DNA of 22,299 nt. It comes from a virus. A program made the translations under genes and the position numbers. The notes under the pieces are model-generated. The model searched no databases and was not told where the DNA came from. It saw only the letters and a program-made list of their open reading frames with translations. Numbering within the stretch: position 1 is the stretch's first letter; each line of letters opens with the position of its first letter. The stretch covers positions 1-22,299 of the IMG/VR virus record IMGVR_UViG_3300028571_000136; one strand, 5' to 3'. Below, in pieces: positions 2,087-21,717 of this stretch.

Positions 2087-2113
2087 AAAAATAGAAAATA
2101 AATAAAAAAAATG

Positions 2114-2120
2114 GTGTAAT
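2114..2120 (+). promoter_or_regulatory. GTGTAAT promoter-like motif before the tail tube gene
   Basis: GTGTAAT lies in the 58-base gap between 2086 and 2145, after an A-rich stretch (2087-2111), with 24 bases between motif and ATG. GGAG at 2131-2134 serves as SD (10 bases before the ATG). The same heptamer occurs before 3397, 5732, 20061 and 21718 and, as GTGTAAA on the other strand, before 20009. The promoter role is inferred from this recurrence. Confidence 0.6.
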
Positions 2121-2144
2121 AACTGTAAATGGAGAAATACTAAT

Positions 2145-3293
2145 ATGGCAAGAAATCGTATAATTTATCAATCAGAAGCTGTTTATGCTGGACCCGCTCC
2201 AGCAACAGGTTACCACTACGGAACATACACACCTGGAATCGGTGGAAATAGTAATGTACCAAATTCAAGGAATAATCTAGTTCAACAGCTACAAAGAATT
2301 CAAACAGCTAATTATAGCTTTACAGTAGATCGCACAGATGTTAATCAATTCGGACAATTAGCAGCTATTGATCGTGTAATTTTAACAAATCCAACAGTTT
2401 CATTAGATTTTAGTTATATTAACTCGAGTCTTGCTAATGAAAATCTTCTAGGATTCACAGTTGCTTCTGGAAGTAGTGATTCAACTGTCTCTGCTATTTC
2501 TGGATTCTTAAATAAAACTTCAGATGAAAGAAATTATTTCATTCGTACAACTCCAGAAGGTACTGATGCAGTAGGATTCACAGATGGTTCTTCTGGAAAT
2601 AACGGAGTTATTGGAATTGGCAACGCATTCTTAACTTCATATTCAACAGAAGGTTCTGTTGGTAATTTCCCAACAACAACTATCAATGTTGAAGGTTTGA
2701 ATATGAATTTCCAAAACGGAATTAGTGGAAATTTTGTTCCAGCAGTTAATCCTACAGACGGATCAGCTCTAACAAACTATTATCAATTAGCTCAAGCTGT
2801 TGAAAATGTTGGAATTGGACTTGGAAGCACAATCAGCGCTCTACGTCCAGGAGATATTACATTATCATTAAGTAATACATTGGCTAGTGGAGTTGATGTA
2901 AATACAATGAATATCCAAAGCTACACATTGAGCTTCGATCTAGGTCGTACACCAATTCAAAGACTAGGAAATAAATTCGCATTCACAAGAGAGATTGACT
3001 TCCCATTAACAGTAACATTAAGTGTTGATGCTCAAGTCACAACAATGAATGCAGGAAATTTAGCAAATCTTGTAGTTGATGATTCAGCAAAATACAATCC
3101 ATCAATCACAATCAAGAGTCCATCTAATTCTAATCTAACTATGGCAAAATACATCCTTAAGGGTGCAAAATTAGATAGTCAAGAATATAGCTCTGATGTA
3201 GGTAGCAATAAATCTGTCTCCCTTACATTCAGTGCTCAAGTTGGTGGCCCACAAGACACATCTAACGGATTATTTATCAACGGACAGTTCTAA
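2145..3293 (+). CDS. Major tail tube protein
   Basis: A 382-residue protein, low in Cys, rich in Ser/Thr/Asn and beta strands, expected to form the stacked rings of the tail tube. It sits between neck genes and the chaperone/tape-measure genes, as tube genes do. It is the only gene in the window isolated between its own promoter-like motif and a strong terminator, fitting very high expression. Its codon use also looks different from neighbours (more CGT, ATC, TTC), typical of an abundant protein. Two blocks (residues 58-92 and 162-190; then 257-296) align with the product of 20061-20861, so the tube fold is present twice in this phage. The ATG has GGAG 10 bases upstream. A tube role is well supported by context; no family name is claimed. 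Confidence 0.75.
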   Translation: MARNRIIYQSEAVYAGPAPATGYHYGTYTPGIGGNSNVPNSRNNLVQQLQRIQTANYSFTVDRTDVNQFGQLAAIDRVILTNPTVSLDFSYINSSLANENLLGFTVASGSSDSTVSAISGFLNKTSDERNYFIRTTPEGTDAVGFTDGSSGNNGVIGIGNAFLTSYSTEGSVGNFPTTTINVEGLNMNFQNGISGNFVPAVNPTDGSALTNYYQLAQAVENVGIGLGSTISALRPGDITLSLSNTLASGVDVNTMNIQSYTLSFDLGRTPIQRLGNKFAFTREIDFPLTVTLSVDAQVTTMNAGNLANLVVDDSAKYNPSITIKSPSNSNLTMAKYILKGAKLDSQEYSSDVGSNKSVSLTFSAQVGGPQDTSNGLFINGQF

Positions 3294-3316
3294 TAAATAA
3301 TACATAATTAAGTTAT

Positions 3317-3352
3317 AAAATAACCCCTACGTTCTCGTGGGGGTTATTTTTT
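3317..3352 (+). terminator. Intrinsic terminator after the tail tube gene
   Basis: A 15-bp stem (3317-3331 with 3336-3350; one G-T pair) around a TTCT loop, with a GC block (CCCC/GGGG) and a run of six T at 3347-3352. The A-tract on the 5' arm makes it potentially bidirectional. It lies 23 bases after the tube gene stop, and its T-run directly abuts the next GTGTAAT motif. Confidence 0.93.
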
Positions 3353-3359
3353 GTGTAAT
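3353..3359 (+). promoter_or_regulatory. GTGTAAT promoter-like motif before the chaperone-region operon
   Basis: GTGTAAT begins at the base right after the terminator T-run and is 37 bases before the ATG at 3397. An SD-like AAAGGT at 3383-3388 precedes that ATG by 8 bases. This restarts transcription for the four genes 3397-5668 after the tube gene is terminated. Confidence 0.6.
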
Positions 3360-3396
3360 TGAAGTTAGGCAGAGGGTTAGATAAAGGTAAAAGATT

Positions 3397-3621
3397 ATGG
3401 AAAACGATCCTATTAAAGACATGACTCTTTTTCAGATAAAGAGAAAGATCACAAATATATACAAGAATTTCTTTTTTATTCTTGAAGACTTGACTGATTC
3501 TGGATATAATATAAATGATGAAACCTATCAAAAAATGCGCAAAAGAATACTTGATAATGCTAATGATGCAGTAAGAGAGATAGAAGAGAACTTTACTAAA
3601 CTTAACATAACATTAAAATGA
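3397..3621 (+). CDS. Small helical protein of unknown function
   Basis: A 74-residue protein predicted to be almost wholly alpha-helical, with two amphipathic helices (about residues 8-33 and 40-68), many Lys/Glu and no Cys. It is the first gene of the unit after the terminator. Its ATG has AAAGGT at 8 bases, and its TGA overlaps the next ATG (ATGA, 3618-3621), so the two are translationally coupled. No family is recognised. Location between tube and tape measure genes suggests a tail-assembly accessory. The open frame of 72 codons on the other strand here crosses the terminator and is a shadow. Confidence 0.7.
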   Translation: MENDPIKDMTLFQIKRKITNIYKNFFFILEDLTDSGYNINDETYQKMRKRILDNANDAVREIEENFTKLNITLK

Positions 3622-3893
3622 AATCTAAAAAATTAAACTATAATTTTCCTATAACCCAAATAATAGAAGGTAATCTTTCTACACAAAGTATACAAAAAAA
3701 CTTAAAAGATAACTTTGGAATTTTAAAACCAAGTTTAACAACATTTAAGAATCCCAATTTTATTAAAAATTATCAAAACTGGGATGATAATAAAAAACAT
3801 CAATTTATTAAAACAATTGGTGGAGTAGTTTACTATGGTAAAATCAAAAACTATCTACAGGAATTAATTGACAGTAATGGAGAAAAAATATGA
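3618..3893 (+). CDS. Small basic protein of unknown function
   Basis: A 91-residue, Lys/Asn-rich protein that overlaps its neighbours by 4 bases at both ends (ATGA junctions at 3618 and 3890). It has a basic N-terminus (MKSKKLNYNF), a region containing KNYQNWDDNKKHQF (residues ~50-63) and a hydrophobic segment IGGVVYYGKI (residues ~67-76) too short for a membrane span. No family is recognised. Tight coupling with the 74-residue gene and the chaperone-like gene suggests that the three are made in fixed ratio for tail assembly. Confidence 0.65.
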   Translation: MKSKKLNYNFPITQIIEGNLSTQSIQKNLKDNFGILKPSLTTFKNPNFIKNYQNWDDNKKHQFIKTIGGVVYYGKIKNYLQELIDSNGEKI

Positions 3894-4654
3894 AAACAAT
3901 GTTTGAATTTGATATATATCACGAAAAAGAAATAGAAAAAATAGAAGTATCTACTAATGAAAAAGGCGAAGAAGTAAAGACTACCTCTAAAGTTAAAACT
4001 GCTGTTCCAGTAAAATTAGCTATTAAAAAACCTACAAGAACTCTTTTTGATGAAGCCGAATTATTTTATGGAGTTAGGCTCTCAGAAGGAATTAAAGCTG
4101 GATTACTAACTAGAGCATTGCTTGCTAAAAGATTTAGTAATGATGGTGGAGTACTAAGTGATGATGAACAAAAAGAATATAATGAGTTATATCTTGAGTT
4201 TTTTAATTTACAAAATGAATTTCAAAAATTATCTATTAAAGACGAAGCTATAAGAACAGAAGAAGAAAAGCAAGAGGTTCAAAATGTAATTATAAAAATA
4301 AACCTTTCTAGAGAAAAGCTTCAAAGATATGAAATGGCGCAAGCCAATCTTTTTGAACAAACCGCAGAAAATAGAGCTAGAAACAAAACTATCATGTGGT
4401 GGGTTCTTCAACTTAGTTTAATACAAGGCGAAGATAAAAAATTCAAAGAACTCTTCAAAGAGGGGTCTTATGATGCGAAGCTTAAAGTATATGACGAAAT
4501 TGAGGAGTCTGAATCTGGAGTAGAGAAAATAGCTTTACAAAAACTTCTTTATTTAATCAGTTTCTGGTATATTGGTAGAGCAGCTTCCCAAGAAGAATTT
4601 GAGAAACTTTTGAATGTCATGCAAAAAGATGAAACAAAAGAATCAAAGGGATAA
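3890..4654 (+). CDS. Putative tail assembly chaperone (G-like by position)
   Basis: A 254-residue acidic protein in the slot between tube and tape measure genes, where tail assembly chaperones (lambda G/GT type) are encoded. The N-terminal ~45 residues are charged and look like two strands with a basic turn (EVKTTSKVKT). A helical core follows (residues ~48-175, including EAELFYGVRLSEGIKAGLL), with coiled-coil potential from ~85 to 145. The ATG (3890) has GGAG about 7 bases upstream and overlaps the previous stop. The stop TAA at 4652-4654 is followed at once by an in-frame TGA, and the next gene continues in the same frame. No lambda-like -1 slippage is needed or supported. The chaperone role is inferred from position. 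Confidence 0.5.
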   Translation: MKTMFEFDIYHEKEIEKIEVSTNEKGEEVKTTSKVKTAVPVKLAIKKPTRTLFDEAELFYGVRLSEGIKAGLLTRALLAKRFSNDGGVLSDDEQKEYNELYLEFFNLQNEFQKLSIKDEAIRTEEEKQEVQNVIIKINLSREKLQRYEMAQANLFEQTAENRARNKTIMWWVLQLSLIQGEDKKFKELFKEGSYDAKLKVYDEIEESESGVEKIALQKLLYLISFWYIGRAASQEEFEKLLNVMQKDETKESKG

Positions 4655-4660
4655 TGATTG
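4645..4660 (+). promoter_or_regulatory. RBS, tandem stops and TTG start between the chaperone-region genes
   Basis: AAAGGG (4645-4650) is the SD for a TTG start at 4658, with 7 bases between. In the same frame, TAA (4652-4654) and TGA (4655-4657) come immediately before that TTG. An ATG at 4654-4656 is in another frame and gives only 15 codons. Reinitiation after the upstream stop is the simplest reading. Confidence 0.6.
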
Positions 4661-5668
4661 CAAACTTTAGAAAAGAACAAATTAAGGCTTTCATTTGTTG
4701 ATATATTAAAAGGATATAGCCTATCCTATTATAAAAATAATAAATTATATTTTAAACACAATACAAGTCTTGATTCTGGAGATATAGATCACCTTAGACA
4801 AGAGTTTATAGAAATAGCCCAAAAAAAGGGGCTTCCAACTGAAGATCAAAAAGAAGACTATATAATACTAGAAGATCTTTGGTCAAAAGATAAAAATAAA
4901 GAGATTAAAGATTTAAAATTTGATATCTCTAATTTAAAGCAAACTAAATCAAAACTATTTAAAAACGATGACGTTAATGAATTCAATAAACAAATTGATG
5001 CAAAAAAATTAGAATTAATTAATTTAATTTCTGAAAGAAAAGAGCTTTTAGGTTTTACTGTAGAAGACTACGCAAACAAAAAAATTAATGAATATTATAT
5101 GTTCAACTCGTTATTCAAAGATAAGGATTTAAAAGATAAATTTTTCTCTGAACAGGAATTTGACGAATTAGAAAATAAAGACATATCTGAAATATTGCAA
5201 ATATATAATGATATCAATAAAAATTTTGCAGAAAATAATCTTAAAAAAATAGCTCTTTCTTCTTATTATCTTAGCTTATTTAATATTTGTGATGAGAGTG
5301 CATATAATTTATATGGTAAGCCTATAATATATTTAACGTTTTATCAAATGGAAGTGTTTGGATATGCTAGATACTTCAAGAATGCATTAGAGCAAGCAAA
5401 GCATAAACCAACTGATGAATTATATGAAGATCCAGAAAAACTTATAGAATGGTTAGAGAGTAGTCGAAACGCACAAGAACTTCTTAATAAAACAGAAGAG
5501 GGTCATAGAAAAACAGAGGGTGCAATAGCTACTTCTATTATAGGGGCTAAAAAAGAAGATCTAGCTAAAATAGGCAAAGATGAAAATAGTATAAGTCTAC
5601 ATAAAGAAGCTCAGAAAAAGGGTGGTGTTTTGAATATGGATGATCTAATAAAGATGCATAAAGCTTAA
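4658..5668 (+). CDS. Putative tail assembly protein, second gene of the chaperone slot
   Basis: A 336-residue Lys/Glu-rich protein encoded directly before the tape measure gene. Residues 1-60 form a mixed alpha/beta region (LRLSFVDILKGYSL..YYKNNKLYFKHN). Residues ~88-135 have coiled-coil character (IKDLKFDISNLKQTKSKL, then KQIDAKKLELINLISERKE). The C-terminal third holds a Tyr/Phe-rich helical part (FYQMEVFGYARYF) and a flexible charged tail ending NMDDLIKMHKA. The start is TTG at 4658 with AAAGGG upstream; no in-frame ATG lies nearby and the frame is closed directly upstream by TGA and TAA. It has the position of the T part of a G/GT pair, but it is a separate, non-frameshifted product. Family not recognised. 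Confidence 0.55.
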   Translation: MQTLEKNKLRLSFVDILKGYSLSYYKNNKLYFKHNTSLDSGDIDHLRQEFIEIAQKKGLPTEDQKEDYIILEDLWSKDKNKEIKDLKFDISNLKQTKSKLFKNDDVNEFNKQIDAKKLELINLISERKELLGFTVEDYANKKINEYYMFNSLFKDKDLKDKFFSEQEFDELENKDISEILQIYNDINKNFAENNLKKIALSSYYLSLFNICDESAYNLYGKPIIYLTFYQMEVFGYARYFKNALEQAKHKPTDELYEDPEKLIEWLESSRNAQELLNKTEEGHRKTEGAIATSIIGAKKEDLAKIGKDENSISLHKEAQKKGGVLNMDDLIKMHKA

Positions 5669-5700
5669 ATATCTAATACTATCATAATTAATCATATTTT

Positions 5701-5707
5701 GTGTAAT
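5701..5707 (+). promoter_or_regulatory. GTGTAAT promoter-like motif before the tape measure gene
   Basis: GTGTAAT, preceded by ATATTTT, is in the 63-base gap between 5668 and 5732 and lies 24 bases before the ATG. An SD-like AAAGGA (5719-5724) lies 7 bases before the ATG. No terminator is seen in this gap, so the motif would add to read-through from the upstream unit. Confidence 0.6.
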
Positions 5708-5731
5708 TTATCATAGCAAAAGGATTAAGGA

Positions 5732-8700
5732 ATGGCAAGAACATCAGCTACAATTAGCGTAGGTGCGGATACTAGGCAGCTTGAAAGAGATATTCAAGGC
5801 GCTTTAAGCCGTGATTTTAAATTAAAGGGATTGAATGAAAAGGCCTTTACTCAACCTTTGGGTAGAATCACTGGTTCAGCAAATGAATTTCAAAAATCAT
5901 TAGATGCATCTAATGCTCGTGTTATAGCCTTCGGAGCAAGTGCTGGATTGATATTTACTGTAGAAAAAGCATTTACTTCATTGGTTAAAAGCACTATAGA
6001 TGTTCAAAAATCATTAACTGATATTAATGTAATATTGAACGCAAGCGCTGGCACTTTAGATAAATTTGGTAATAGCTTATTTGATATAGCTAAAAATACT
6101 GGTCAATCTTTTGATGTGGTTGCTGTGGCTGCTACTGAACTTTCTCGTCAAGGTCTTGGCTTAGAAGAAACTCTTAGAAGAACTCAAGATGCATTAATAT
6201 TAACTCGTTTAAGTGGTCTTGATACAGCAAGTGCTGTAGAAGCTTTAACAGCTACAATTAACAGTTTTAATAAAGCTGGCTTAGATTCAACAACTATTAT
6301 TAATAAATTAGCAAATGTTGATGCGGCTTTTGCTGTTAGTAGTGGTGATCTTGCAGAAGCGATTAAACGAGTTGGATCTTCTGCTTCAGATGCAGGGGTT
6401 GGTTTTGATGAACTATTAGCAATCGTAACTAGCGTACAACAAACTACAGCTAGAGGTGGTGCAGTAATTGGAAATTCTTTAAAAACAATATTTACAAGAA
6501 TAGAAAGAACTGAAACCTTAGATCAACTTGAAGAACTAGGTATTAAAGTAAGAGATTTGCAAGGAGATGCATTACCAGCAATTCAAATTCTCTCTAATTT
6601 ATCTAATACTTTTAATACTTTGGCTAGTTCTCAAAAAGCTCAAGTAGCTGAAACTGTTGGTGGTATATTTCAAATTAATATTTTAAAAGCAGCGTTAGGA
6701 GATTTAGGAAAAGAGTATTCTGTTTACGATAGAGCTTTGCAAACATCAGCGAATAGCACTGATCAAGCTATCCAAAGAAACGAAGCTTTAAATCAAACTC
6801 TATCGGCTTTAATTAATCAAACTTTTCAAAATTTAATTCGTGTTTCTTCTGATGTTGGTGAAATATCTTTGGGCCCAACATTTAAAAACACTTTAGAGAT
6901 ATTAAACAAAGGATTAGAGTCGTTATCTACTGATAGTAGTTCTACTGGTGGAAAAATTGGTAAAGGAATATTAGAAGGAATTGGCACATTTATAAGTGGA
7001 CCAGGAGTTATATTAATTACTGCTGTTTTTGGAAAATTACTTTTAAATTTAGGAAAATTTGCTGCGCAATCATTAGGCGTACTTTTAAATATAAATACTC
7101 AGTCCGAACAAAGAGTGCAAATACAAGCTAAAATTAATGAAGTATTAGCTCAAGAACCGTCTTTGGTAGCTGCAATATATAGCAAACAAATAAGTGTCTT
7201 AGAAGTAGAAAATCAAATTCTTAATATAATTAGATTGCAGACTATAGAAAGAGAAAGAGCTGCGGCTGTTTCAGCTACTATTGCTGGAGGATTAACTAAA
7301 CGAGGAGTAAGTACCAAAGGTGGATCTTTAAAAGCCAGCTCAGGATTTATACCTAATTTTAATGCTTCAGAAATCTATGGCGCATTAGCTGGAGGATATG
7401 CTCCAGGAAATATTCGACAAATGAATATCCCTGGAAAAGGAAATGTAACTTATAATAGCGCAGAAACAGTTAAAAATTTTCCAGGAATGAGTCAACCAGC
7501 TATTATGCCACCTCAAGATAGCAAAGCTGGAAAAAATTATAAAAAACAATTTTCTAGTGCTCATGGATTTAATCCTTATGCAAGCGAAGGTTTTATTCCT
7601 AATTTTGTTACAACCCCATTTCAAAAAGCTCAAAAACTTTTTACAGAAGCAAGAAGTTCAAAATTAGATGTTGAAGATTTAATTAGAAAAAGAAATTATA
7701 TAATAACGCCAGAAATAAGAAAAGAAATAGAAGGCATTAAAACAGATCCTAAAAAAACCGCGCAAACAAAAGGAGAAGTAGTCACCTATGATGCTAGTAA
7801 ATTAGGTATAGTTGGAGTAGGTGGAAGAAGAGGTACTGTAGATGCTCAAACTGCATTTAGTACATTAGGTTATACAAAAGATCCAAGATCAGTAAAATTT
7901 GTAGGAATCCAAGCGAGAACACTTGAAGATTTAAAAAATAGCGAAGTTCGAGATAAAAATTCTTTTTCTACAAAAATTAATGACTTATTTTATAATCCAC
8001 TTGCTCAACTTGCAAATGATATTTTTGGTCCATTAAGTCCAGATCCTAAATTTAAATCAGTACTCGCGTCTAATACTAGAAAAGCTGGAATCAATCTTTT
8101 CCCACCAGGCGCAGAAGGATCAATTTTTGAAGCCGCAGTAAATTTAGGAACAAAAAAAGGTGGATCATTAGAGGCTGCATTTAATCAAAACGCTTCTCAA
8201 AAACCATTTGATTTTGAAGAAGCGTCTCCCCCAGCTACAGCTTTTAATAGTAAATTTGGATTTACTCCACCCGTTTTACGAGCAGACGCAAAAAGAACTA
8301 TATCAAGCGAACAAGCAAGAGAAATAATTGATAAAGCTTATAGAGATGCTATCACTAGAAGTGATCCAAAGTTACCAAAACCAAGAATAGCTGCGTCAGG
8401 TTTTATTCCTAATTTTACAGCATTAGATAATGCTATTGGAAGAGAAGTAGCAGCTGGTACAGCTACTTCTAAAATAAGAGTTGGCAAAGATGCAAGACTA
8501 ACATCTTCAGCAAATCCACTTGGATTAGGAGTTTATAATACAAAAGATGAACCTATGGGTCTTGGCCAAGGAGTTGAAAGATATGGATCAAAAGCTAAAA
8601 CCGCAGGAGCAGCTGCTGGATTTATTCCTAATTTTGCAGAATTATCATTTAATCCTGGAAGCAAAGGTGCAATAATGGATCCATTAGTTGCAGATAAACG

Positions 8701-11700
8701 AGTTGGTGCATCAGTATCAAGGATCGTAGCAAAATTAAAAACTCAAGAAATAACACTTGATCAGGCAAACGCAAAGCTTAAACAATTAACTGCAGATTAT
8801 GGAATCGCTGCAAGTAGTCAAAATAGATTCAATCAAATTTTACAAAGCAGAGGATCTCAATTTGCAAGTAGCGCAAAATCTGCAACTTTAGCATTAGATA
8901 ACAGTAAAAAAGGTTTTGAAAAATTTGGTGGTGCGGCTTTAGCTGCTTCCTTTGTTATACCAATGATTCTACAAACAGTTAGTCAATTTAACGAAGGAAA
9001 TAAAAAATTACAATTAGGAATAAATGCAGCAAGCACAGCATTAAGTCTTACTGCTGCTGGAGCTACTTTTGGAGTTCCTGGTGCAATCGCAGGTGCGGCT
9101 GTTGGAGGTGGATTAGGTTTATATCAATATTTTGAAGGATTAAAAGGCATGGACCTTGAAAAACTTAAAAATGATATTCAAGCGCTTCAAGATGAATTTA
9201 ATAATACTTCAACGTCTGTAAATCAAATTATACCATTAATAGAAAAATATAAAGAGATTCAAGGTTCTAGCCTACCTGATGTTGATAAAGCTGAAGCCTC
9301 ATTAAGGGTTCAAAATCAAATTACTGAAAATATAGGAAAAATTGGACCAGAATTTTCAGATGCCCTATTGAAATCTTTACAAGATGCTGTAAAAAATGGA
9401 GACTATACTGCATTTTCTAATGATTTAAATAAAGCACTTATTAAAAAATCTGCTGAATTATCAAATTTGAGTGCGCAAGCAGTAATCGAGGGTGCGGGAA
9501 AAAATATAACAGATAAATCTGTAGCAGGAGGAATTAGTAAAGCAGTAACTGGGTTACAAACTTCATCAGGAAAAAATATAATACAAGACTTATCAAAGAC
9601 TGAAGAGGGCAAAGCTAAAATTGGAGAAACAATTCAAAAATTAGATTCACTATTATTACAAAGAGCGTCTAAAGAAAAACAAATAAATGATTTAATAGTT
9701 ACTGAAGAGCAAATAGCACAAAGAAGACAAGCAGGAGAAAAAGAATTTTTAGCGTATTCAAAAGAAAAGGGTTCGTTAGGACAAAAAGCTGTAGCGTTAA
9801 TCTTTGGTTACAATAAGGCTTTAGATGAGGGATATGGTAACGAAAAAAATAATAACGAAATAATAAAATTAAGAGAAGATCTAAACAAAGAATTAAATTT
9901 AAATTTAAGTGAATATTTACAAGCCGTCAAACCTTTATATCAAACTACCGAAGAAGGAAGAATACAATTTCAAAAATTAGAAGAAAAAGCTAAAGAATCA
10001 TCTTTTAATCAAGAAGCTGGAAATAAAGTAATTAAAGATACTAAAGCATATCTACTAAACATTAAAGACCATGAAGAAAAAATTGCAGCCTTATTAAAAA
10101 GTGGAATTTCAACAGTAGACCAATATATTCTAGGATTTAAAAATAATACATTAAATGCAAAAGACGCTCAAGAATTTTATAAGAAAACATTTGCATTACA
10201 AAATGATCCATTAAGAATGTTAGGCAAAAGTCAAAATGAACTTAATATGTCTGTTGCAACCACTATACTTAATGAAGACAGTAGAAATAGAGTACTAGAT
10301 CAACTAACAGTAGAGGAAGATAAATTAAGAGCAAAATTAGCAAATAGACAAATAACCGAAGATCAATACGCTAAAGCCCTTGAAGGATTAAAAGATAAAA
10401 TAATTCTTGAACAAAGAAAAGGCGGAACAATATTTGCAGAGGATTTTAGAGGCGGAAGACAAACCGCAAGAGAAAATAAGGCTCTAGCTGGCCAAACACA
10501 ATTAGAAGATTTTGCTGGAGCATTTTTTGATGAATTTGATAATAGTGCTGCAGATTCATTCCGTCAAGCTCAACTGGGTGCCAAAGATACCGCCAATACA
10601 ATCAAAAGTGAATTTAATAACGCCTTCTTATCTTTCGCTAATGGAACAGCTACTGCTAGCGATGCTTTCACAAAAATGGCTCTAAACGTCAGCGACAAGA
10701 TACAGCAATTAGCTCTTGAATTTAGTACAAACCTTATTTTTGGAAAACTTTTCGGGACTACAAGTAATATGTTTGGTGGCGGTGGAAGTGGAGGTATTGG
10801 AGATTTCTTTGGTTCATTATTTAAATCAAAAGGTGGAATGGTTAAAGGATATTCGTCTGGTGGTAATGTAACTGGTGGATCAGGAAATAAGGACGATGTT
10901 CCAGCTATGTTAAGTGGTGGAGAATATGTTATAAAAAAAGATTCTGTTAACAAATATGGTTCTAGTTTACTTCATATGATAAATGGAGGTAGAATTAACG
11001 GATTCGCTTATGGTGGAGAATCTTCTTATAATGGTACAAATGTTTATAGATATAATGATCCTCTTTATCCAACCGCTGGGGAAAATGTTATTGATCCAAG
11101 ACTAAGTTTACAAGCCATTATTGATCCAAATAATCCTCAAAATAAAATTAGGCAAGAAAGAGAGCAGAGTCTTTATGATTATTTAAATTATGCTGAAGGA
11201 GTTAGGTTGGAAAATGAAAGAGCATTACAAGAAAATATAGCCTTAAACAAAAAAATTCAAGATGAATATAATCAGCAAAAAAATGCAAAATCAAACGGGG
11301 CGTGGTATCAAGCTCTTTTTGGACTTGCAGGAGCTGGATTAAGTTTCGTTGGTTCTAATGGGGGTTTTGGCGGGAGTAGTGCCTCAAAATATGGAGCATC
11401 AGCAACTTTAGGAGGTGGAGCGGCAGCAAGACAAAGTTATTCTAATAGCGCACCATTTCGTTATAGTACTCCAACACCAAGAGCAAACGGTGGATATATT
11501 AGAGGTTTTGCAAATGGTGGTTCAAGTGGCAAAGATGATATTCCAGCAATGCTTATGGGGGGTGAATTTGTTGTGAGAAAAGAAGCTGTAAATATGTATG
11601 GCAAAAAATTCTTTGATGACCTTAATTCTGGAAGAGCAAAAAAGTTTGCAGATGGTGGTTCTGTTGATAATTCATCAGCTGGAACGAACTCAACCAGTTA

Positions 11701-11920: not shown

Positions 11921-11921
11921 T

Positions 11922-13337
11922 TTATAATATTAATTTTGCTGAGAAGTTGATTAAATCTTTATCTGATATAATTTGAGATTTATTAATAGAAGGATTTTCA
12001 ATTAAATATTCATTTAAAGTCTGTAAATCATATGAATATTTGAACAATAAGGTGATATAATCCTTGCCGTCGATATTTGTCTTGTATTTTTCGCTATATT
12101 TGAGGTTATTGCTAGTTTCTATATAGAATTTCTCATTGTTGTAAAAAGTGGTTATATATTCAATATAAATATTACAAGTATTGCTATTTTCTTCGATTTC
12201 GATGATTTTGGCTTGAAGTACCCCTTGGTTTTGAAGATAATCTAGGTCAATGGCCACATCTTCGTAGGCACTAGAATCTTTACCATAAAAACCTAAATAT
12301 CTCTTTTGTAGGTTATAGTTATTATCAATTACGTCATCTGTATTTAAATCATTAGACAAGCATATAGTTTTATTAGCTTGATCTTTATTTAAAAGTGGGA
12401 AATAACGATTAAATGCAATATCATTAATTGATATATTTGAAGTTAAGCTATTTGAATTTAAACTTTCATTATTGAATAAATACAAGTAATTTTGATAGAA
12501 TACTACAGTTTCATTATTTACAGACTGCTTATATATTTTGCCAATATTAAATGTTTGATTAGGGAAATATTCTTCGTATAGATTATTAATGTCTTCTTGA
12601 GATTCTCTTCCTTTTAAAAAATTATATAATTCAGATTGAAAGTAATTAAGTGGAATAACTTTAATGTTTAAGTTCTCAGAGATTTCAACAATATCGCTTT
12701 CAATAAAAGGTATTGTTAATAATACCGTAGATTCATTTACATCTAACCATTTTTCTTCAACTTTTTCAGTAAATAGATTTGTTAATTTTTTATTTTTAAC
12801 TAACTTATTGGAAACTTCGCTCAATATGAGGAATGAATATACCTCTTGCTGTTTAAAATATTCTTTATTTATAAGTAATTTTACTGTAAGGTAGTCGCTA
12901 CTGCGATAAATTTTATTAAATAAAGTATTTTTATCTAAATTTTCAATTTCAGCATATTCTGCGCCAAGTTCAAAATCTCCTTTGCCGTCATTATTATAAT
13001 CTACTTCAAATTTTAAATTTTTAAAAAAACCGAGTTTATTATTTAATTCTTTATATTTTATATAATTATTGTGAAAATCATATTTAAAAATATTTTTAGT
13101 TTTATTTTTAGACACCTCTACAGTAAGCTTTGGTTTAAGCATAAAATCTTCACATAGAAGATTAGATTCCGTAATAAATTCATGATTATTTAAATTTAAA
13201 TTTTGGTCTATCAAGTAATTATTTTCATTTTTTACTTTTACATTATAAGTTGGGAACTGTGTATCAATTTTTAAAAATTCAGGAATATTTCTGATAGTTT
13301 CCCATTCCAAAGTTAAATTTAAATTTTTTACTTTCAT
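11922..13337 (-). CDS. Unidentified tail-tip-associated protein with calcium-loop-like motifs
   Basis: A 471-residue acidic, Asn/Tyr-rich protein, last gene of the minus-strand tail-tip operon, only 3 bases after the gpJ-like stop. It is beta-rich without signal peptide or membrane span. Two Asp-rich loops resemble calcium-binding loops: D113-x-N-x-D-G-K-G-D121 (very like the D-x-N-x-D-G-K-x-D of FG-GAP or dockerin loops) and D330-x-N-x-D-D-x-x-D338. In lambda-like phages the gene after J encodes an outer-membrane-interaction or side-fibre protein, so a role at the distal tail such as receptor contact is plausible, but no family is recognised. The start ATG has no SD. Its stop lies one base from the tape measure stop on the other strand, with no clear terminator between them. 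Confidence 0.65.
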   Translation of the reverse strand: MKVKNLNLTLEWETIRNIPEFLKIDTQFPTYNVKVKNENNYLIDQNLNLNNHEFITESNLLCEDFMLKPKLTVEVSKNKTKNIFKYDFHNNYIKYKELNNKLGFFKNLKFEVDYNNDGKGDFELGAEYAEIENLDKNTLFNKIYRSSDYLTVKLLINKEYFKQQEVYSFLILSEVSNKLVKNKKLTNLFTEKVEEKWLDVNESTVLLTIPFIESDIVEISENLNIKVIPLNYFQSELYNFLKGRESQEDINNLYEEYFPNQTFNIGKIYKQSVNNETVVFYQNYLYLFNNESLNSNSLTSNISINDIAFNRYFPLLNKDQANKTICLSNDLNTDDVIDNNYNLQKRYLGFYGKDSSAYEDVAIDLDYLQNQGVLQAKIIEIEENSNTCNIYIEYITTFYNNEKFYIETSNNLKYSEKYKTNIDGKDYITLLFKYSYDLQTLNEYLIENPSINKSQIISDKDLINFSAKLIL

Positions 13338-13340
13338 AAA

Positions 13341-16300
13341 TTAATAAACATTTGCACCAGAAGCTTGAACACTGAAAACAGAGGCTTGATTGGTTAGGTT
13401 GAACGATGCCGCAAGAGCAGAGGTTCTTTCTCCTATATTATTTTCAGCAAATATTCTAAAATAGTATGTACCAGCACCAGTTGGTGTTATAAATGGTGGT
13501 ATATTACCTATAGCCCAATTAAGTGGAGCTAAACCAGTTCTAATTGTTAAAGGAGATATCGCATCAAATAAATATGATTCTGGCGTTTGAGTCGTGCTTG
13601 TAAAATCAGAAAATGGTTTTACGTATACATAATATAAGTTATTACTTGCATTATTTATTGGCGGTTGTATATTATACATTATACTATTAATTCCACCTTG
13701 ATTTGTTGTATAAATTGAATTACAAGCATTGGTTGTACAATAACTATTAGTAATAGGACTCCTAAAGATTCCACTTAAAAATAAAGTAGGAGCAACTGGA
13801 GCTGCAGGTCTAAGCGGTACGTTAACTAAATCATTTACATTATCAATATTTGCGTATTTTTGATCATTATATTCAAGGGCGTTAATATTAAATAATTGTA
13901 GTTCTTTTTCTGTAATATCTAATACTCTATATTTTTTAGGTTTATTAAGATATGATTCTAAATAATATCCTGGATATAAAGTATTGGTTGGATTGTTCAT
14001 TTGAGATCTTGTGTTAATTCCTGCTGTTGCATATCCAGAAGTATTTATATCTATATTCCAAACTGTATTTTGCGGTAAACTATAACCGCTAACTATTAAA
14101 CCTCTTGGAAAATTAAGTCTTATATTGTTAGAATATATCCCAGATCCACTAGTTAAATATTTTTGTGGATTATTTATTGTAATAGACTGCAACTGACTTC
14201 TTCTAAAGAATGAACTATTTAATCCTGTTACTCCTGAAGATGTAACATTAAAACCAGTAATATATAAATCTCCAAGTTGTGTTCCAGGATTTAAATTATA
14301 AGTTGGAGTTAATACATTAAATACAAATGAATTATTCATATTTGCGCCAGTAATTGCGTATGTATTAGTAAAATTATATGGAGTATCTAATACTGCGTAT
14401 CCACTAGTTAGTTCTAATGTTCTTCCTGCATAAGATTGATTTTTTCTATATTGATCATGAATTGATATAACATCTCCTGGCCTTAAATAATTGCCCTCTA
14501 GACCAACTTGAAAATCAACCAATTCTGTTTCTGTATTTTGAGTAAGTAAAAGCCATTTGCCAATTCTTTTCGCTTGACTACTGCTTGTGCAACCAAACGC
14601 AACAATTTCTGTTTCTCGTATTCCGTATTTTAATATTGAGTTTTTATCTTCTACATATTCCATTGCTGGTTTATAATTATCATTTTTATCATTAAATCTT
14701 ATGGTCGCTACTGTTTTTCTTGATTTTTTAGAAGCATCAGAATAATTAAATGACCCTTCTATGACATTACTATTATTAAAAAGATATATAGGCTCTTTTA
14801 ATGAATCTTGAGATACAGTTATTTGTCCAGCTGAATAATATACGATCGCTCTAAAAATACTCGACATATCATTTAAAACTTTATAGGCTTCTTCTTTTGT
14901 ATTAATATATAAATTACAAGTAAATCTGGGCTCTAAACCTCCAAGACCATCAGATACAAGTTGATCACAATATTGACCAACCTCATACAAAGTCCATTTA
15001 TCTGTTAAGCTAGTATCAATAAATTTTCCTAATCCATATCTATTATTTGTAATTAAATCATAAAAACACCAAGCTGGATTATCAGTCCATGCAATTTTAA
15101 ATTTTCCGTTCCATGGACCAGTATAATTTCTAGCAATTGGGTCATAATTTACTGGTATCTTGACTTTTAATAATCTTAATTTATATGTTCTTGTTGGGAT
15201 ATCATTAAAATATCTTGCATCAAATTTTGAAAACACTAAAGCTGCGTCTGGATAAACAAAACGATCTGAATAAACTTCAGTTATGCTATCTATTGATGTA
15301 GAATTAAAAAGTCCACCCCCCACACTTTCTCTTGTTTTTTTAACAACATCTATAGCCCAACCAATTTGATTTGAAAAAATTTCAAACCAAGGAGTATTTT
15401 CTGCATTAGGCCTTAATGTTATTTCATATGGAACGATCATTGGGCTATTAGCTATTTTTCCTTGCAGTTGAATAGTGTCGACTGAATATCCTTCTCTTAG
15501 ATAAGGTTTATATTTAGATGTATCTAATAATATAAGACTATTGTCTGAAAGAATTCTATATATTGCAAACGTAAAAACTCCAACTTGTGGCTCAACATCT
15601 CCAGCGTTTGATCCAGCTAGAATTTGTTCATTTAAACTATTTATTTTTATATTTATTTTAATTGATGAAACATCAGTATTATATACATAGTAAGTTTTTG
15701 GTGTTAATATTTGAGTTCCAGTTAATTGATAAAATCCGTATAAAGTTTCATTTATGCTTTTTGTTACAGATGTTTGTAATGGTATTTTATTTTGATCAAC
15801 TTGTTTACCAAAGTAATTTCTTCTTTCTTCATATAGATTTAAATATGGATTATAAATTGTATGATCATTTGTTTTTTCGCCATATGTATATTTATAATTT
15901 ACATATTGAAAATTATAAAACCCTGCAAGATCTGTAATTGGAGTATCATTCCAATATATTGATCTAGTTTCTGGATTACTATAAGTTTGTTCGTATGGTT
16001 GAAATCTAACGCTAGTATATCCTATATCTCCAATTGATTTTCCACTTAAATTTGGAATATATAACCCACTAACAAATCCTTCAATTGGACCCTCGCAAAC
16101 TAAATCTAATACGTTAACTTGACCAATGGAATTATATGCTCTTTGATCTTTAAATCTTTGAGTTAAAAATACTCCATTATCTAATGGAGCCGTTCCAGCT
16201 TCTACAGCTGCAACATTACTTACTCCAAATATTGTTCTTAAATCTGGCGCACCAAAAGTATTCGCCCTAAAGAGTGTACCATCTGCAACACTTCCATCTC

Positions 16301-16577
16301 TAGTACTAAATCTTTGAATATTGGCCCCAGTCATTACAGCTAATACAGTATGCCTTGCAAGAAACCCACTTGGCCCCCTGCCATAAATATTTGGCGCGCC
16401 TGGATTAGAGGTAGGGACAGGCAATGCTGTACCACTAAAGCTTAAACACAAATTACCACCACCTACATCATCTTGAGCCGTACTTTCTGGAAAATTATAT
16501 CCACATACTCCTTGACCAACATTTCCAGGAAAAACAAGGTATTGTAAACCGTCTGCGTATTTATTTGGATTTCCCAT
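13341..16577 (-). CDS. J: gpJ-like tail tip / host specificity protein
   Basis: A 1,078-residue central tail-tip protein that forms the distal hub and usually contacts the receptor. Lambda gpJ hallmarks in order: LVCEGPIEG (~159-167), AWTDNPAWCFYDLIT (~496-510), YCDQLVSDGLGGLEPRFTCN (~536-555), an FNYSD...TVATIRFND segment (~610-630), FGCTSSSQAKRIGKWLL (~661-677) and LRPGDVISI (~698-706). The C-terminal ~150 residues include a fibronectin-III-like strand pattern (YYFRIFAENNIGERTSA). Unlike lambda gpJ, where EGPIEG lies near residue 30, ~150 residues precede it here: a Gly-rich segment with Cys25 and Cys44. It follows the I-like gene by 4 bases; no SD. It is probably cotranscribed from the divergent promoter near 20036. 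Family assignment is firm; receptor unknown. Confidence 0.95.
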   Translation of the reverse strand: MGNPNKYADGLQYLVFPGNVGQGVCGYNFPESTAQDDVGGGNLCLSFSGTALPVPTSNPGAPNIYGRGPSGFLARHTVLAVMTGANIQRFSTRDGSVADGTLFRANTFGAPDLRTIFGVSNVAAVEAGTAPLDNGVFLTQRFKDQRAYNSIGQVNVLDLVCEGPIEGFVSGLYIPNLSGKSIGDIGYTSVRFQPYEQTYSNPETRSIYWNDTPITDLAGFYNFQYVNYKYTYGEKTNDHTIYNPYLNLYEERRNYFGKQVDQNKIPLQTSVTKSINETLYGFYQLTGTQILTPKTYYVYNTDVSSIKINIKINSLNEQILAGSNAGDVEPQVGVFTFAIYRILSDNSLILLDTSKYKPYLREGYSVDTIQLQGKIANSPMIVPYEITLRPNAENTPWFEIFSNQIGWAIDVVKKTRESVGGGLFNSTSIDSITEVYSDRFVYPDAALVFSKFDARYFNDIPTRTYKLRLLKVKIPVNYDPIARNYTGPWNGKFKIAWTDNPAWCFYDLITNNRYGLGKFIDTSLTDKWTLYEVGQYCDQLVSDGLGGLEPRFTCNLYINTKEEAYKVLNDMSSIFRAIVYYSAGQITVSQDSLKEPIYLFNNSNVIEGSFNYSDASKKSRKTVATIRFNDKNDNYKPAMEYVEDKNSILKYGIRETEIVAFGCTSSSQAKRIGKWLLLTQNTETELVDFQVGLEGNYLRPGDVISIHDQYRKNQSYAGRTLELTSGYAVLDTPYNFTNTYAITGANMNNSFVFNVLTPTYNLNPGTQLGDLYITGFNVTSSGVTGLNSSFFRRSQLQSITINNPQKYLTSGSGIYSNNIRLNFPRGLIVSGYSLPQNTVWNIDINTSGYATAGINTRSQMNNPTNTLYPGYYLESYLNKPKKYRVLDITEKELQLFNINALEYNDQKYANIDNVNDLVNVPLRPAAPVAPTLFLSGIFRSPITNSYCTTNACNSIYTTNQGGINSIMYNIQPPINNASNNLYYVYVKPFSDFTSTTQTPESYLFDAISPLTIRTGLAPLNWAIGNIPPFITPTGAGTYYFRIFAENNIGERTSALAASFNLTNQASVFSVQASGANVY

Positions 16578-16581
16578 AAAA

Positions 16582-17346
16582 TTAAAAAGCTAAAGCTTGC
16601 AAAGGTTCTTGACTTATTAGCTGACATCTAGAGTTAAATAAATATTGAGAATTTCCTGCGTTATTTATTTGTAAACTACTAGTATCATAATTACCAGCAT
16701 ATGCTCTATAAACTATATCATAAGTACTAAATACATTATTCCCACCAACCATTAGTTCTCCATATCCTATTGGGACTGGGCCACCTTCACCAACTGTATT
16801 TACTGGTCCATTAAAAAGATAAGAGGTTGGTCCTCCAGCTTCACCCTGTCCATCTATCGGATTGACTTGTTGAGCAGTAAAAGGAACAGATGGTGGGGGT
16901 TTTGATAATAATTCACTTGTTCCTGCTGCAATTAAACCTAAACCAACAAATCCAATCGCCACGGCTGGTAGAAGAAATGGTGTAAATACTGCTATAGCTA
17001 TCGCTGCAACAATTAGAATTGCTCCTACTATTATTTTTCCTATCCCTCCAGAACCTATAATGGATGGAACAATATCTATTGTTTTTATTTTATTTTTAAT
17101 ATTTAAACAGAATTCAGAATTTTTTAATTCATTTATATCTTTGATATTAGGAGATTCATCAAAAAAATTATTATCGTCTGCTAAAATTTCATATTCATAT
17201 TGATCTTTATTATATATTAACCAATGTCTTAATTTTTTAGTATTTATATCTATAGCGTGTAAAGCTTCTGCTACAGAAGAAACATCTAATTCCCATGTTT
17301 CCCCTAAGTCTTCACCCAATTTACCATGCAAATTTACTGTTATCAT
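16582..17346 (-). CDS. I: Lambda I-like tail assembly protein
   Basis: A 254-residue member of the Lambda_tail_I family. The N-terminal ~85 residues form a ubiquitin-like region (ITVNLHGKLGEDLGETWELD, then SVAEALHAI). Next comes a strongly hydrophobic Gly/Ala/Ile segment (~95-147, two possible membrane-active helices), then a Pro-rich linker (KPPPSVPF) and the conserved NGPVNTVGEGGPVPIGYGELMVG block (~179-202). In lambda gpI takes part in tail-tip assembly around gpJ and is not found in the mature tail (family knowledge). The ATG overlaps the stop of the K-like gene by 4 bases, indicating coupling. It is slightly longer than lambda gpI, with ~50 residues after the conserved block. Confidence 0.92.
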   Translation of the reverse strand: MITVNLHGKLGEDLGETWELDVSSVAEALHAIDINTKKLRHWLIYNKDQYEYEILADDNNFFDESPNIKDINELKNSEFCLNIKNKIKTIDIVPSIIGSGGIGKIIVGAILIVAAIAIAVFTPFLLPAVAIGFVGLGLIAAGTSELLSKPPPSVPFTAQQVNPIDGQGEAGGPTSYLFNGPVNTVGEGGPVPIGYGELMVGGNNVFSTYDIVYRAYAGNYDTSSLQINNAGNSQYLFNSRCQLISQEPLQALAF

Positions 17347-18068: not shown

Positions 18069-18070
18069 TT

Positions 18071-19456: not shown

Positions 19457-19460
19457 AATT

Positions 19461-20009
19461 TTATGCTGGTACTTCCATGAATGCAGCTTCTATAGAGTAG
19501 TTATTATAAGATATATAAGTTGGAGACCATTCTGCGCAAACAAATTTTGTGCTTAAGTCGCTGCTTGATTTAGAATATATTGTTGGAAGATTATAAACGA
19601 AGGCTTCTTGCGCGTTTCTTTCGTTTAAGAAATGCAAAATAGATACCGCTTCTATTTCACTTCTATTATCAAAATTTAAAGTTAGTTCTATCAAATTATT
19701 ATTTATTCCATCATTTATTCGTTGCTCGTATCCATTACCAAATTTGTTAATTTTAATTCTTGGTTTATTATTTATTTTAGCATTATACGAAGGTTTCCAG
19801 AAAAAATTCGGATATAGCACGCTATTTAAAAGTATATATCCATCCCAATCAACTTGAAGATTGGCAGGGGTTACTGGATTATTTCCAGCACCTACATTAG
19901 AATCTATTATTGAATAATAGTATTTGCTATCAGTACCAAGTACTATATTGTACTTGCTATAAATAGTAAGCGAGCTCCAAGCTAGAACTGTATCGTAAAT
20001 ACTTGCCAT
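19461..20009 (-). CDS. M: Lambda M-like minor tail protein with N-terminal aromatic module
   Basis: A 182-residue protein. Residues ~68-182 match the Phage_min_tail (lambda gpM) family: NFFWKPSY, KINKFGNGYEQRINDGIN, LNFDNRSEIEAVSILHFLNERN, KFVCAEWSPTY and the ending AAFMEVPA. Residues 1-60 are additional: AWSSLTIYSKYNIV, KYYYSII and VDWDGY form a W...Y...YYY...N...P...W pattern like the insert in the L-like protein next door. It is the first gene of the minus-strand operon, with a perfect AGGAGGT SD (20019-20025) 9 bases from the ATG and a GTGTAAA motif just upstream. The role is in building the tail tip where the tube meets the L- and J-like proteins. Confidence 0.92.
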   Translation of the reverse strand: MASIYDTVLAWSSLTIYSKYNIVLGTDSKYYYSIIDSNVGAGNNPVTPANLQVDWDGYILLNSVLYPNFFWKPSYNAKINNKPRIKINKFGNGYEQRINDGINNNLIELTLNFDNRSEIEAVSILHFLNERNAQEAFVYNLPTIYSKSSSDLSTKFVCAEWSPTYISYNNYSIEAAFMEVPA

Positions 20010-20018
20010 ATACCTTTT

Positions 20019-20025
20019 ACCTCCT
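20019..20025 (-). promoter_or_regulatory. Perfect Shine-Dalgarno of the tail-tip operon
   Basis: On the minus strand AGGAGGT lies 9 bases before the ATG at 20009. It is the strongest ribosome binding site in the window and heads the six-gene tail-tip operon, while most downstream genes of that operon start by tight coupling with little or no SD. Confidence 0.85.
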
Positions 20026-20029
20026 ATAT

Positions 20030-20036
20030 TTTACAC
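20030..20036 (-). promoter_or_regulatory. GTGTAAA promoter-like motif for the minus-strand tail-tip operon
   Basis: Read on the minus strand, GTGTAAAATATAG follows TTTTAA and ends about 20 bases before the ATG at 20009. It is the mirror of the plus-strand GTGTAAT at 20046-20052, only 9 bases away, making a compact divergent promoter pair. The seventh base is A instead of T. Confidence 0.55.
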
Positions 20037-20045
20037 TTAAAAGAT

Positions 20046-20052
20046 GTGTAAT
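20046..20052 (+). promoter_or_regulatory. GTGTAAT promoter-like motif for the tube-paralogue gene
   Basis: GTGTAAT ends 8 bases before the ATG at 20061, where no SD is present. If the motif is a -10 element, transcription would begin at or next to the start codon, giving a leaderless mRNA. It is divergent from the motif at 20030-20036. Confidence 0.6.
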
Positions 20053-20060
20053 TATAGTTA

Positions 20061-20861
20061 ATGTTTAATGTATATTCTATAGAAAATCAGAACTTTTATC
20101 TAAATGATTCCTTGGTATCTGGAATAAAAAGTTTTAATGTTGGAGTTGACTTTAAAATAAGTCCTCAAATATCTATCAATGATTCAATTAATTATACAAA
20201 AGATGGTTTACCAGTTGCTCAATTTGACTTATCTTATGTATTAAGTGATAGTGATAGATTTTTGCTTTATACTGGAACTAATTCATTTTCTGGAAGAGTT
20301 GAATATGGAGATAAATATGTAACATTTACAGATGGGTATTTAACTAATTATTCTTTAAATTACAAACTAGGAGAATATCCAACTGTTGATATAAAAGGGA
20401 TTATTTTTAATTGGACAGCTTCTCAAATAACTTTTAAACCAAAACCAGTAAATTTAAATACATTTAATGTTGGAGATCCATGTTTTATTGATACAAATAT
20501 AGCGACTTTTACTTCAAATCGAACCCAATCATTTGGAATTAATATTGATGTAAGTCGTATTGCCAATTATACTATTGGAAATTATTTACCAGACACTGTA
20601 TATATTCAATATCCAATAAAACAAGAAATGTCAACAGATGCTAGCGCAAGCGATTCAATATTTATTTCTAACATTTCTAATTTACCAAATTCAGGTTACG
20701 TTAGTACTGCTAGTCAATATATATCAATTAAAAAATATCAATCTGACTCAAATTTAGCGACATTTAACTTCTCTCAAGTTACTAATAATATTAACTCTTC
20801 ATTGAGTAGCGATAATGAAGCTCAATACAACCAAAGTAGAGTATCTTATCTTCAACCATAA
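20061..20861 (+). CDS. Second tail tube-like protein (paralogue of the major tail protein)
   Basis: A 266-residue beta-rich protein. Residues 155-194 align without gaps to residues 257-296 of the tail tube protein (12 of 40 identical by eye: QS, D, R, GN, T, I, P, S and DA shared). Residues 93-108 (YLTNYS...LGEYPT) match 162-177 (FLTSYS...VGNFPT) with the same spacing. Residues 24-60 (SFNV...FDLSYV) match 58-92 (SFTV...LDFSYI). It is about 116 residues shorter. It is likely a minor tube-fold protein such as a distal ring or completion protein at a tube end (inference). It begins a plus-strand unit divergent from the tail-tip operon; the next gene starts 42 bases downstream. Its start has no SD, only a nearby GTGTAAT. 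Confidence 0.75.
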   Translation: MFNVYSIENQNFYLNDSLVSGIKSFNVGVDFKISPQISINDSINYTKDGLPVAQFDLSYVLSDSDRFLLYTGTNSFSGRVEYGDKYVTFTDGYLTNYSLNYKLGEYPTVDIKGIIFNWTASQITFKPKPVNLNTFNVGDPCFIDTNIATFTSNRTQSFGINIDVSRIANYTIGNYLPDTVYIQYPIKQEMSTDASASDSIFISNISNLPNSGYVSTASQYISIKKYQSDSNLATFNFSQVTNNINSSLSSDNEAQYNQSRVSYLQP

Positions 20862-20888
20862 TTTTTAGATTTTTAGCAATATATATAC

Positions 20889-20894
20889 TATAAT
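20889..20894 (+). promoter_or_regulatory. Possible TATAAT -10 element before the 157-residue gene
   Basis: A perfect TATAAT ends 9 bases before the ATG at 20904, mirroring the 8-base spacing of GTGTAAT at 20061 and 21718. A weak -35 candidate (TAGATT, 20866-20871) is 17 bases upstream. The gap is almost pure A/T, so a chance match is quite possible. Confidence 0.3.
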
Positions 20895-20903
20895 ATAATA
20901 AAT

Positions 20904-21377
20904 ATGACATTTCCAGAACTCCTCAATTCTCCAGTATTTTTTAATACTTTTCTTAAAAATGATACATTTTTCAACTCTTTAAAAGATAAGTTTCCAGAAA
21001 TCTTAGCAGATCTTACTAGCTCCAAAAACAATCCAAATTGTTCTTGCAAAAATAGAGTAAAAGCTCATCTTCAAGCTAAAATTACCACTGAGGAAGATTA
21101 CTTTAATAATCTAATAAATAATGAAGAAATCAAAAAATTATTAGAAGAAAAAGCAGGAGAAATTAAATCTTCTCAAGTATCAAGTGACCCAATGGAACAT
21201 CATATGCAAATGATGCAACAAAACATGTTTAGAAATAGTGGCGGAAGAGTATTTGAAATTGGCAAATCTGAAGAAGCTTGGAAAGATCTTGCTAAAAAAT
21301 TAAGTGATGAAAAAATTGGTTTTAAATCTTTTTCTTTAGTTGAAAAAGAAGATAAATTGGTCGTTTATTTTATTTAA
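20904..21377 (+). CDS. Unidentified helical protein with CxC and Met/His-rich segments
   Basis: A 157-residue protein. The N-terminal ~40 residues are Phe/Leu-rich amphipathic helices (PELLNSPVFFNTFLKND). A Cys46-x-Cys48 motif in NPNCSCKNRVKAHL follows, then an acidic helix (~62-90) and a Met/His/Gln cluster (MEHHMQMMQQNMF, ~97-109). A C-terminal alpha/beta part (WKDLAKKLSDEKIGFKSFSL...KLVVYFI) looks like a small folded domain. CxC and Met/His clusters can bind metal, but no family is recognised and no function is claimed. It has no SD at its start, and its TAA directly abuts the next ATG, so the membrane-protein gene is coupled to it. Confidence 0.7.
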   Translation: MTFPELLNSPVFFNTFLKNDTFFNSLKDKFPEILADLTSSKNNPNCSCKNRVKAHLQAKITTEEDYFNNLINNEEIKKLLEEKAGEIKSSQVSSDPMEHHMQMMQQNMFRNSGGRVFEIGKSEEAWKDLAKKLSDEKIGFKSFSLVEKEDKLVVYFI

Positions 21378-21674
21378 ATGTTTTATCAATTCTTGGCGTA
21401 TTTGTTTGTTTGTTTAGGAGTAACTTATGCTTGGAGTGACACTGAAATTGCTAGACCTTTTAGAAATTTTATAGCTAAAATTCCTTATATCCATAAACCT
21501 TTACTTTGCCACGAATGCTCTAGTTTTTGGATATCTTTGGCTGTTAGTTTTTTTATTAATCCATTTGATGTATTAACTTATGCTTATTTTAGCAACTTAT
21601 TAAGTGCTTTTTGTGGATTTTTTATTAATTTATATTTCGTTAGAAACCAATTAGTTAAATATAAAGAATTTTAA
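21378..21674 (+). CDS. Small membrane protein with CxxCxxFW motif (DUF1360-like)
   Basis: A 98-residue protein with three hydrophobic segments (about 2-19, 50-62 and 68-88). Between the first two lies a conserved-looking loop: AWSDTEIARPFRN, then C44-H-E-C47-S-S-F-W. This GVTYAW...plR...C-x-x-C-x-x-F-W layout resembles small membrane proteins of the DUF1360 type found in phages and bacteria, whose function is unknown. It begins right after the previous TAA with no spacer. A holin-like role is conceivable from size and spans, but no lysis gene is nearby. Its stop codon is the first unit of the (TAA)9 tract. Confidence 0.7.
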   Translation: MFYQFLAYLFVCLGVTYAWSDTEIARPFRNFIAKIPYIHKPLLCHECSSFWISLAVSFFINPFDVLTYAYFSNLLSAFCGFFINLYFVRNQLVKYKEF

Positions 21675-21699
21675 TAATAATAATAATAATAATAATAAT
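21672..21699 (+). repeat. (TAA)9 trinucleotide tract
   Basis: Nine uninterrupted TAA units plus one T. The first unit is the stop codon of the 98-residue membrane-protein gene. The tract ends 3 bases before the GTGTAAT motif of the Cys-rich gene, i.e. it occupies the place where a -35 or upstream promoter element would be. Confidence 0.95.
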
Positions 21700-21702
21700 C
21701 TT

Positions 21703-21709
21703 GTGTAAT
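21703..21709 (+). promoter_or_regulatory. GTGTAAT promoter-like motif before the Cys-rich gene
   Basis: GTGTAAT ends 8 bases before the ATG at 21718. No SD is present. The arrangement is the same as at 20046-20061 and also suggests a leaderless transcript. Confidence 0.6.
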
Positions 21710-21717
21710 CTTATTAT

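Follow-up and report, generated by a model that had tools for sequence, protein, structure and literature searches.

The heptamer GTGTAAT, which precedes tail genes of an uncultured phage, is very probably a late promoter made of a single -10-like element. Its most likely reader would be a phage sigma factor associated with the host core RNA polymerase; transcription would start at a downstream A, and many of the mRNAs produced would be leaderless or have leaders of 1-7 nt.

The phage group and the motif copies of the window

The window, which is the whole stretch of DNA analysed here (22,299 nucleotides, IMG/VR record IMGVR_UViG_3300028571_000136), comes from an uncultured phage, of which it is a tail-gene fragment of 22.3 kb. 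It has a tape measure gene and a leftward block similar to the lambda genes M, L, K, I and J, with neighbours that are mostly without assigned function. A second contig, IMGVR_UViG_3300032315_001572 (G001, 89.5 kb), is 95% identical to the window over one tail protein and was analysed whole, and the use of its DNA polymerase III alpha as a query identified at least 180 relatives of the phage group in IMG/VR. No close relative was found among isolate phage records, in which the polymerase and terminase matches were all below 60% identity and a 180-aa core protein had zero matches. The search for a host in GTDB genomes, via the polymerase and via tRNA, gave nothing usable. The group is probably one of freshwater or lakes, according to an impression of the sample identifiers rather than to tool output. 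A large aquatic phage lineage (PMC12619734) was considered as the same group and is disfavoured, since its members are jumbo phages with contractile tail proteins.

Two features of gene content in the relatives can be mentioned here. In G001, a region of ~15 kb (1759-16934) carries at least nine glycosyltransferase-like genes, together with genes for methyltransferase and sugar-nucleotide functions, most of them being common to few or no other members. In G004, T4-type rIIA and rIIB homologues are present (99669-102807) in a group that has lambda-like tail genes.

A sequence-only reading of the window had proposed GTGTAA(T/A), located 8-37 bases before a start codon, as a candidate phage late promoter marking every internal transcription-unit start. 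The six copies that it reported were all found exactly at their positions, with gaps to the start codon of 24, 37, 24, 8, 8 and 20 nt. The features concerned are the following:

2114..2120, plus strand: GTGTAAT, predicted late promoter element, before a 382-aa gene (ATG at 2145; gap 24 nt)
3316..3352, plus strand: intrinsic terminator with a 15-bp stem and a U tract (fold -21.8 kcal/mol, z -6.65), abutting the promoter at 3353
3353..3359, plus strand: GTGTAAT, predicted late promoter element, before the gene block 3397-5668 (gap 37 nt)
5701..5707, plus strand: GTGTAAT, predicted late promoter element, before the tape measure gene 5732-11920 (gap 24 nt)
20030..20036, minus strand: GTGTAAA, predicted late promoter element, before the leftward M-L-K-I-J-like tail tip block, from 20009 down to 11922 (gap 20 nt)
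20046..20052, plus strand: GTGTAAT, predicted late promoter element, divergent from 20036-20030, with an ATG 8 nt downstream and a predicted 1-nt leader
20061..20861, plus strand: 266-aa gene without a PHROG match, whose mRNA is predicted to be near-leaderless
21703..21709, plus strand: GTGTAAT, predicted late promoter element, before the 3'-terminal ORF (ATG at 21718, 8 nt downstream)

These six copies lie in about 360 bases of gap, or about 411 oriented gap bases, where 0.06 would be expected (Poisson P 5.6e-11). In the whole window, GTGTAAW occurs 13 times against 6.4 expected from shuffles, and the seven copies inside genes (2374, 16980, 17257, 17511, 17728 on the minus strand, 18681 and 21980) were missing from the earlier list. 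The gap 20862-20903, of at least 40 bp, contains no copy, which makes the word "every" in the earlier reading a slight overstatement.

Several of these sites are conserved in the relatives. The motif of the tape measure promoter is kept in 9/9 orthologues, and that at 2114, whose 382-aa gene has GGAG in its leader, is kept in G001, G011, G017 and G018, with xTGTAAT variants in others. At the site matching window 3316-3359, a GC-hairpin and T-run followed by the motif appear in this same order in 8/10 relatives; the hairpin of the window itself had been overlooked by a built-in terminator scan and was clearly revealed by folding. The inverted TTACAC..GTGTAA arrangement of window 20030-20052 is also present in G001, G011, G017 and G018, and the offset of 8 at 20046 is kept in 4/4 orthologues. 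In G001, the gene at the place matching the site at 21703 has an offset of 7; in the window, an AAT-repeat run (21676-21700) lies directly upstream of this promoter. Taking into account the promoter that abuts a terminator (3316-3359) and the back-to-back pair (20030-20052), the structural blocks look like separate transcription units.

Enrichment in the relatives and spacing to the start codon

The motif had originally been chosen after inspecting the window, a concern that is removed by an unguided scan of all 7-mers on the oriented upstream gaps of the window and 11 related contigs (~1.2 Mb including the window), with genes called by a simple longest-ORF caller. GTGTAAT ranked first among all 7-mers (135 copies vs 3.1 expected, 43-fold, P ~1e-165 over the 12 contigs, the sites in related genomes not being independent), as expected under the promoter proposed by the sequence-only reading; TATAATA, which is sigma-70-like, formed a second class. 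It could be argued that such a short motif, about half of whose window copies are inside genes, is a chance product of the composition of an AT-rich genome, but the size of this enrichment, a count far above those of same-letter permutations (mean 4.2) and one-mismatch neighbours, and the absence of GTGTAAW upstream of genes in T4 and in the AT-rich HTVC008M, which show their own ATAAATA-type motif instead, make this explanation extremely improbable. Moreover, orthologous gaps vary in the flanks of the motif and not in its own columns, and 154 of 205 copies are located within 75 nt ahead of an ATG-ORF, compared with 15% of random positions.

The target genes fall into 83 groups, many of them structural. 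In G001 the motif precedes 15 of the 21 spaced structural or lysis genes and 2 of the 11 spaced genes of the other half, which agrees with the late promoter that had been proposed, the "late" class being defined here by structural and lysis gene content and not by timing. The same contig has a 257-aa gene (21021-21794, minus strand) that is preceded by a GTGTAAT of its own (spacing 7) and lies on the opposite strand within the replication gene block; a related gene is found in only one other contig.

As a control, the same pipeline recovered TATAAATA in T4, without leaderless spacing. It failed to recover the phiEco32 motif, which is rare (six promoters known), and its power is thus limited for small regulons. 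Among the divergent relatives, G026, whose sigma gene product (see below) is 41% identical, had first been suggested by 7-mers to be free of the motif; this was ruled out by the 6-mer GTGTAA, the top G/C-containing one in that contig (20 vs 1.6). No motif enrichment was detected over the whole of G039 (42 kb), although the class with 38-41% sigma identity is enriched as a group.

With respect to the anatomy of the promoter, the profile between -60 and -10 relative to the motif is flat and without any conserved block, and TTGACA-like hexamers at promoter spacing appear in 12 of 240 sites, in line with the earlier remark that no good -35 accompanies the motif. Neither an extended -10 nor a second conserved block at a fixed distance was found. 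The conserved relation is that with the start codon: the distance from the end of the motif to the ATG has its mode at exactly 7 nt (49/154 sites; spacing 7 in 27 gene groups), and at this position an A is favoured (0.70-0.71) even where the ATG lies elsewhere. A Shine-Dalgarno sequence is present in 0/107 sites whose ATG lies within 14 nt and in 25/47 of those with longer leaders (15-75 nt). We infer from this pattern a transcription start 8 bases after the motif, and the 7-nt spacing, the preference for A and the lack of Shine-Dalgarno sequences, taken together, indicate that many late mRNAs should be leaderless, starting at or near the start codon. This arrangement had been overlooked by the sequence-only reading, and the combination of motif, candidate factor and predicted start-codon fusion is what is new.

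The sharpness of the 7-nt spacing would also be understandable if GTGTAAT were no promoter at all, acting instead as a signal in the mRNA, an alternative ribosome-binding element 7 nt before the ATG. Against this, 47 of the 154 sites are 15-75 nt away from the ATG, about half of them with their own Shine-Dalgarno sequence; the A at +8 is favoured with the ATG elsewhere; and the motif directly follows a terminator-like hairpin in those 8/10 relatives and forms divergent pairs at another site. In addition, the sigma-70-type promoters of the same genomes share the short distance to the ATG, their TATAAT-to-ATG spacing having its peak at 5-8 nt. A translational role is, consequently, very unlikely, and the promoter reading is retained. 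Such a spacing would be expected if these mRNAs, too, began with the ATG or beside it; leaderless starts thus seem to be common throughout these phages and, presumably, in their host as well.

A candidate sigma factor

The larger relatives that reach the corresponding locus encode a protein of ~200 aa which belongs to the sigma-70 family, with regions 2 and 4. Its gene has a kinase-like gene adjacent and ribonucleotide reductase genes close by; among the first 11 relatives it is present in exactly the five contigs with the nrdA cluster, and a profile search in 18 contigs gave 12 positives, with one gene each. Examples are G004 78837-79436 and G021 64158-64748. In G004 (73669-83306), ribonucleotide reductase and kinase-like genes flank the sigma gene, as do IMPDH-like and adenylosuccinate-synthetase-like genes, identified by reading the sequence only; an unusual nucleotide or modified-base metabolism is possible there. 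The match in G026 (167446-168033) spans one TGA stop, unlike those of the other members.

The protein matches PHROG 351/1740 (E 1e-7). Its region 2 matches RpoD/SigA profiles (E 3e-5) and, falling narrowly short of the curated cut-off, PF04542 (E 1.4e-4), and the helix-turn-helix of region 4 matches PF04545 in 4/5 members and in 10/15 contigs, mostly under the curated cut-off. The structure model (pLDDT 77, pTM 0.47) has region-4 helices at 142-195, and the top matches of a fold search with it were sigma factors. The region-4 helix-turn-helix is retained although no -35 is conserved. Beyond a variable stretch, the last residues of the protein form a D-x-I tail that is conserved over 80 loci (94% for D, 91% for I); this tail may be a binding site for another protein, for instance a clamp.

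The sigma gene is absent from the window and from G001, both of which seem to stop short of its locus. Sigma and motif are therefore linked through other contigs, three of which bear, besides the gene, DNA that matches window 2050-5731 at 85, 80 and 74% identity. Across 80 sigma loci, GTGTAAW is enriched 15-19x in every class of sigma identity, from 100 to 38%, and the segments KFSTWLxNQxRYxCLN of region 2.4 and STQTAINLHNK of region 4 are nearly invariant. Motif and sigma are co-conserved, which falls short of proof that this sigma reads this motif. Thus, the phage-specific sigma-like factor suggested earlier has a counterpart in a sigma-70-family gene of the relatives, including those with window-like DNA, and its recognition of the motif is something that we still infer.

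Another proposal would be that the motif is read by an alternative sigma factor of the host, or by its sigma-70 assisted by an activator from the phage. Binding of the phage sigma to GTGTAAT is a prediction, and sigma-70-type TTGACA/TATAAT promoters are present in the same genomes, so that the host holoenzyme probably serves some genes. Nevertheless, the sites have no -35, extended -10 or second block at a fixed distance, the motif and region 2.4 of the phage sigma are conserved together across the group, and a phage sigma with a late class of -10-only promoters has known parallels (PMC8948821, PMC2988020), which leaves a host reader as an unlikely option. The following scheme, based on the phage sigma, is preferred. 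Early genes would probably be transcribed by the host sigma-70 RNA polymerase, to judge from TTGACA/TATAAT, and the ~200-aa phage sigma would later redirect the host core enzyme to GTGTAAT, with initiation at an A separated from the motif by 7 bases. For many structural genes the initiating base would coincide with the A of the ATG, giving leaderless mRNAs or leaders of 1-7 nt; the mRNAs of the remaining genes would begin further upstream and carry a normal leader, which in about half of them includes a Shine-Dalgarno sequence.

Known phage systems and meaning of the finding

A phage sigma with a single-element late promoter is a known type, represented by phiEco32 gp36 and T4 gp55, and what differs here is the motif, the sequence of the sigma, the retained region 4 and the predicted fusion to the start codon. 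A literature search gave no paper that connects GTGTAAT with a phage promoter. The middle and late promoters of phiEco32 gp36 consist of one element, tAATGTAtA, without a -35 and with starts 6-8 bp downstream (PMC8948821). The group resembles this system in its phage-encoded sigma, its one short element and the lack of a -35, and the start predicted from the DNA would be at a similar distance; it differs in the sequence of the motif and in the region-4 helix-turn-helix, gp36 being reported to have no region 4 (PMC8948821). The two phiEco32 sites inspected, at 9102 and 26015, precede genes with an ordinary Shine-Dalgarno leader.

T4 late transcription with gp55 is a phage-sigma system of the same type (PMC2988020). 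The late promoters of T4 (TATAAATA; gp55/gp33/gp45) also have a short -10-like element without a -35, structural genes as targets and a small phage sigma, but the group has GTGTAAT instead of TATAAATA, a difference that the sequence-only reading had already pointed out. In the T4 stretch analysed with the same script, late promoters lie 14-28 nt from the ATG in 13 of 14 cases and 73 nt in one, with a Shine-Dalgarno sequence in 12/14. The comparison of the group sigma with phi32_gp36 and with T4 gp55 gave an hhalign probability of 0.1 in both cases, single-sequence templates making this comparison insensitive. No bacterial-type beta clamp was found in 15 contigs of the group. Salmonella phage 7-11 likewise has a phage sigma, gp47, with a late regulon, whose promoters are bipartite (GTAAtg-16-aCTA; PMC8948821), in contrast to the single element of the group. 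Leaderless transcripts, in which the mRNA starts with the start codon or immediately beside it, have been reported in mycobacteria (PMC4633059, PMC3898074); here they would come from phage late genes with a phage-type promoter, as predicted from sequence only.

It seems probable that throughout the group the late promoter, dependent on the phage sigma, is fused to the start codon, so that many structural genes have one and the same base as transcription and translation start and form a leaderless late regulon, and that region 4 of its sigma no longer reads a -35. A map of the late regulon and a candidate sigma are now available for a phage group for which no close isolate relative was found, and with them the sequence by itself is enough to annotate operons and late genes. 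Should the leaderless prediction be true, the late programme of these phages would do without Shine-Dalgarno leaders in many genes, and their sigma, with regions 2 and 4 and no -35, would offer a compact and testable system of promoter specificity.
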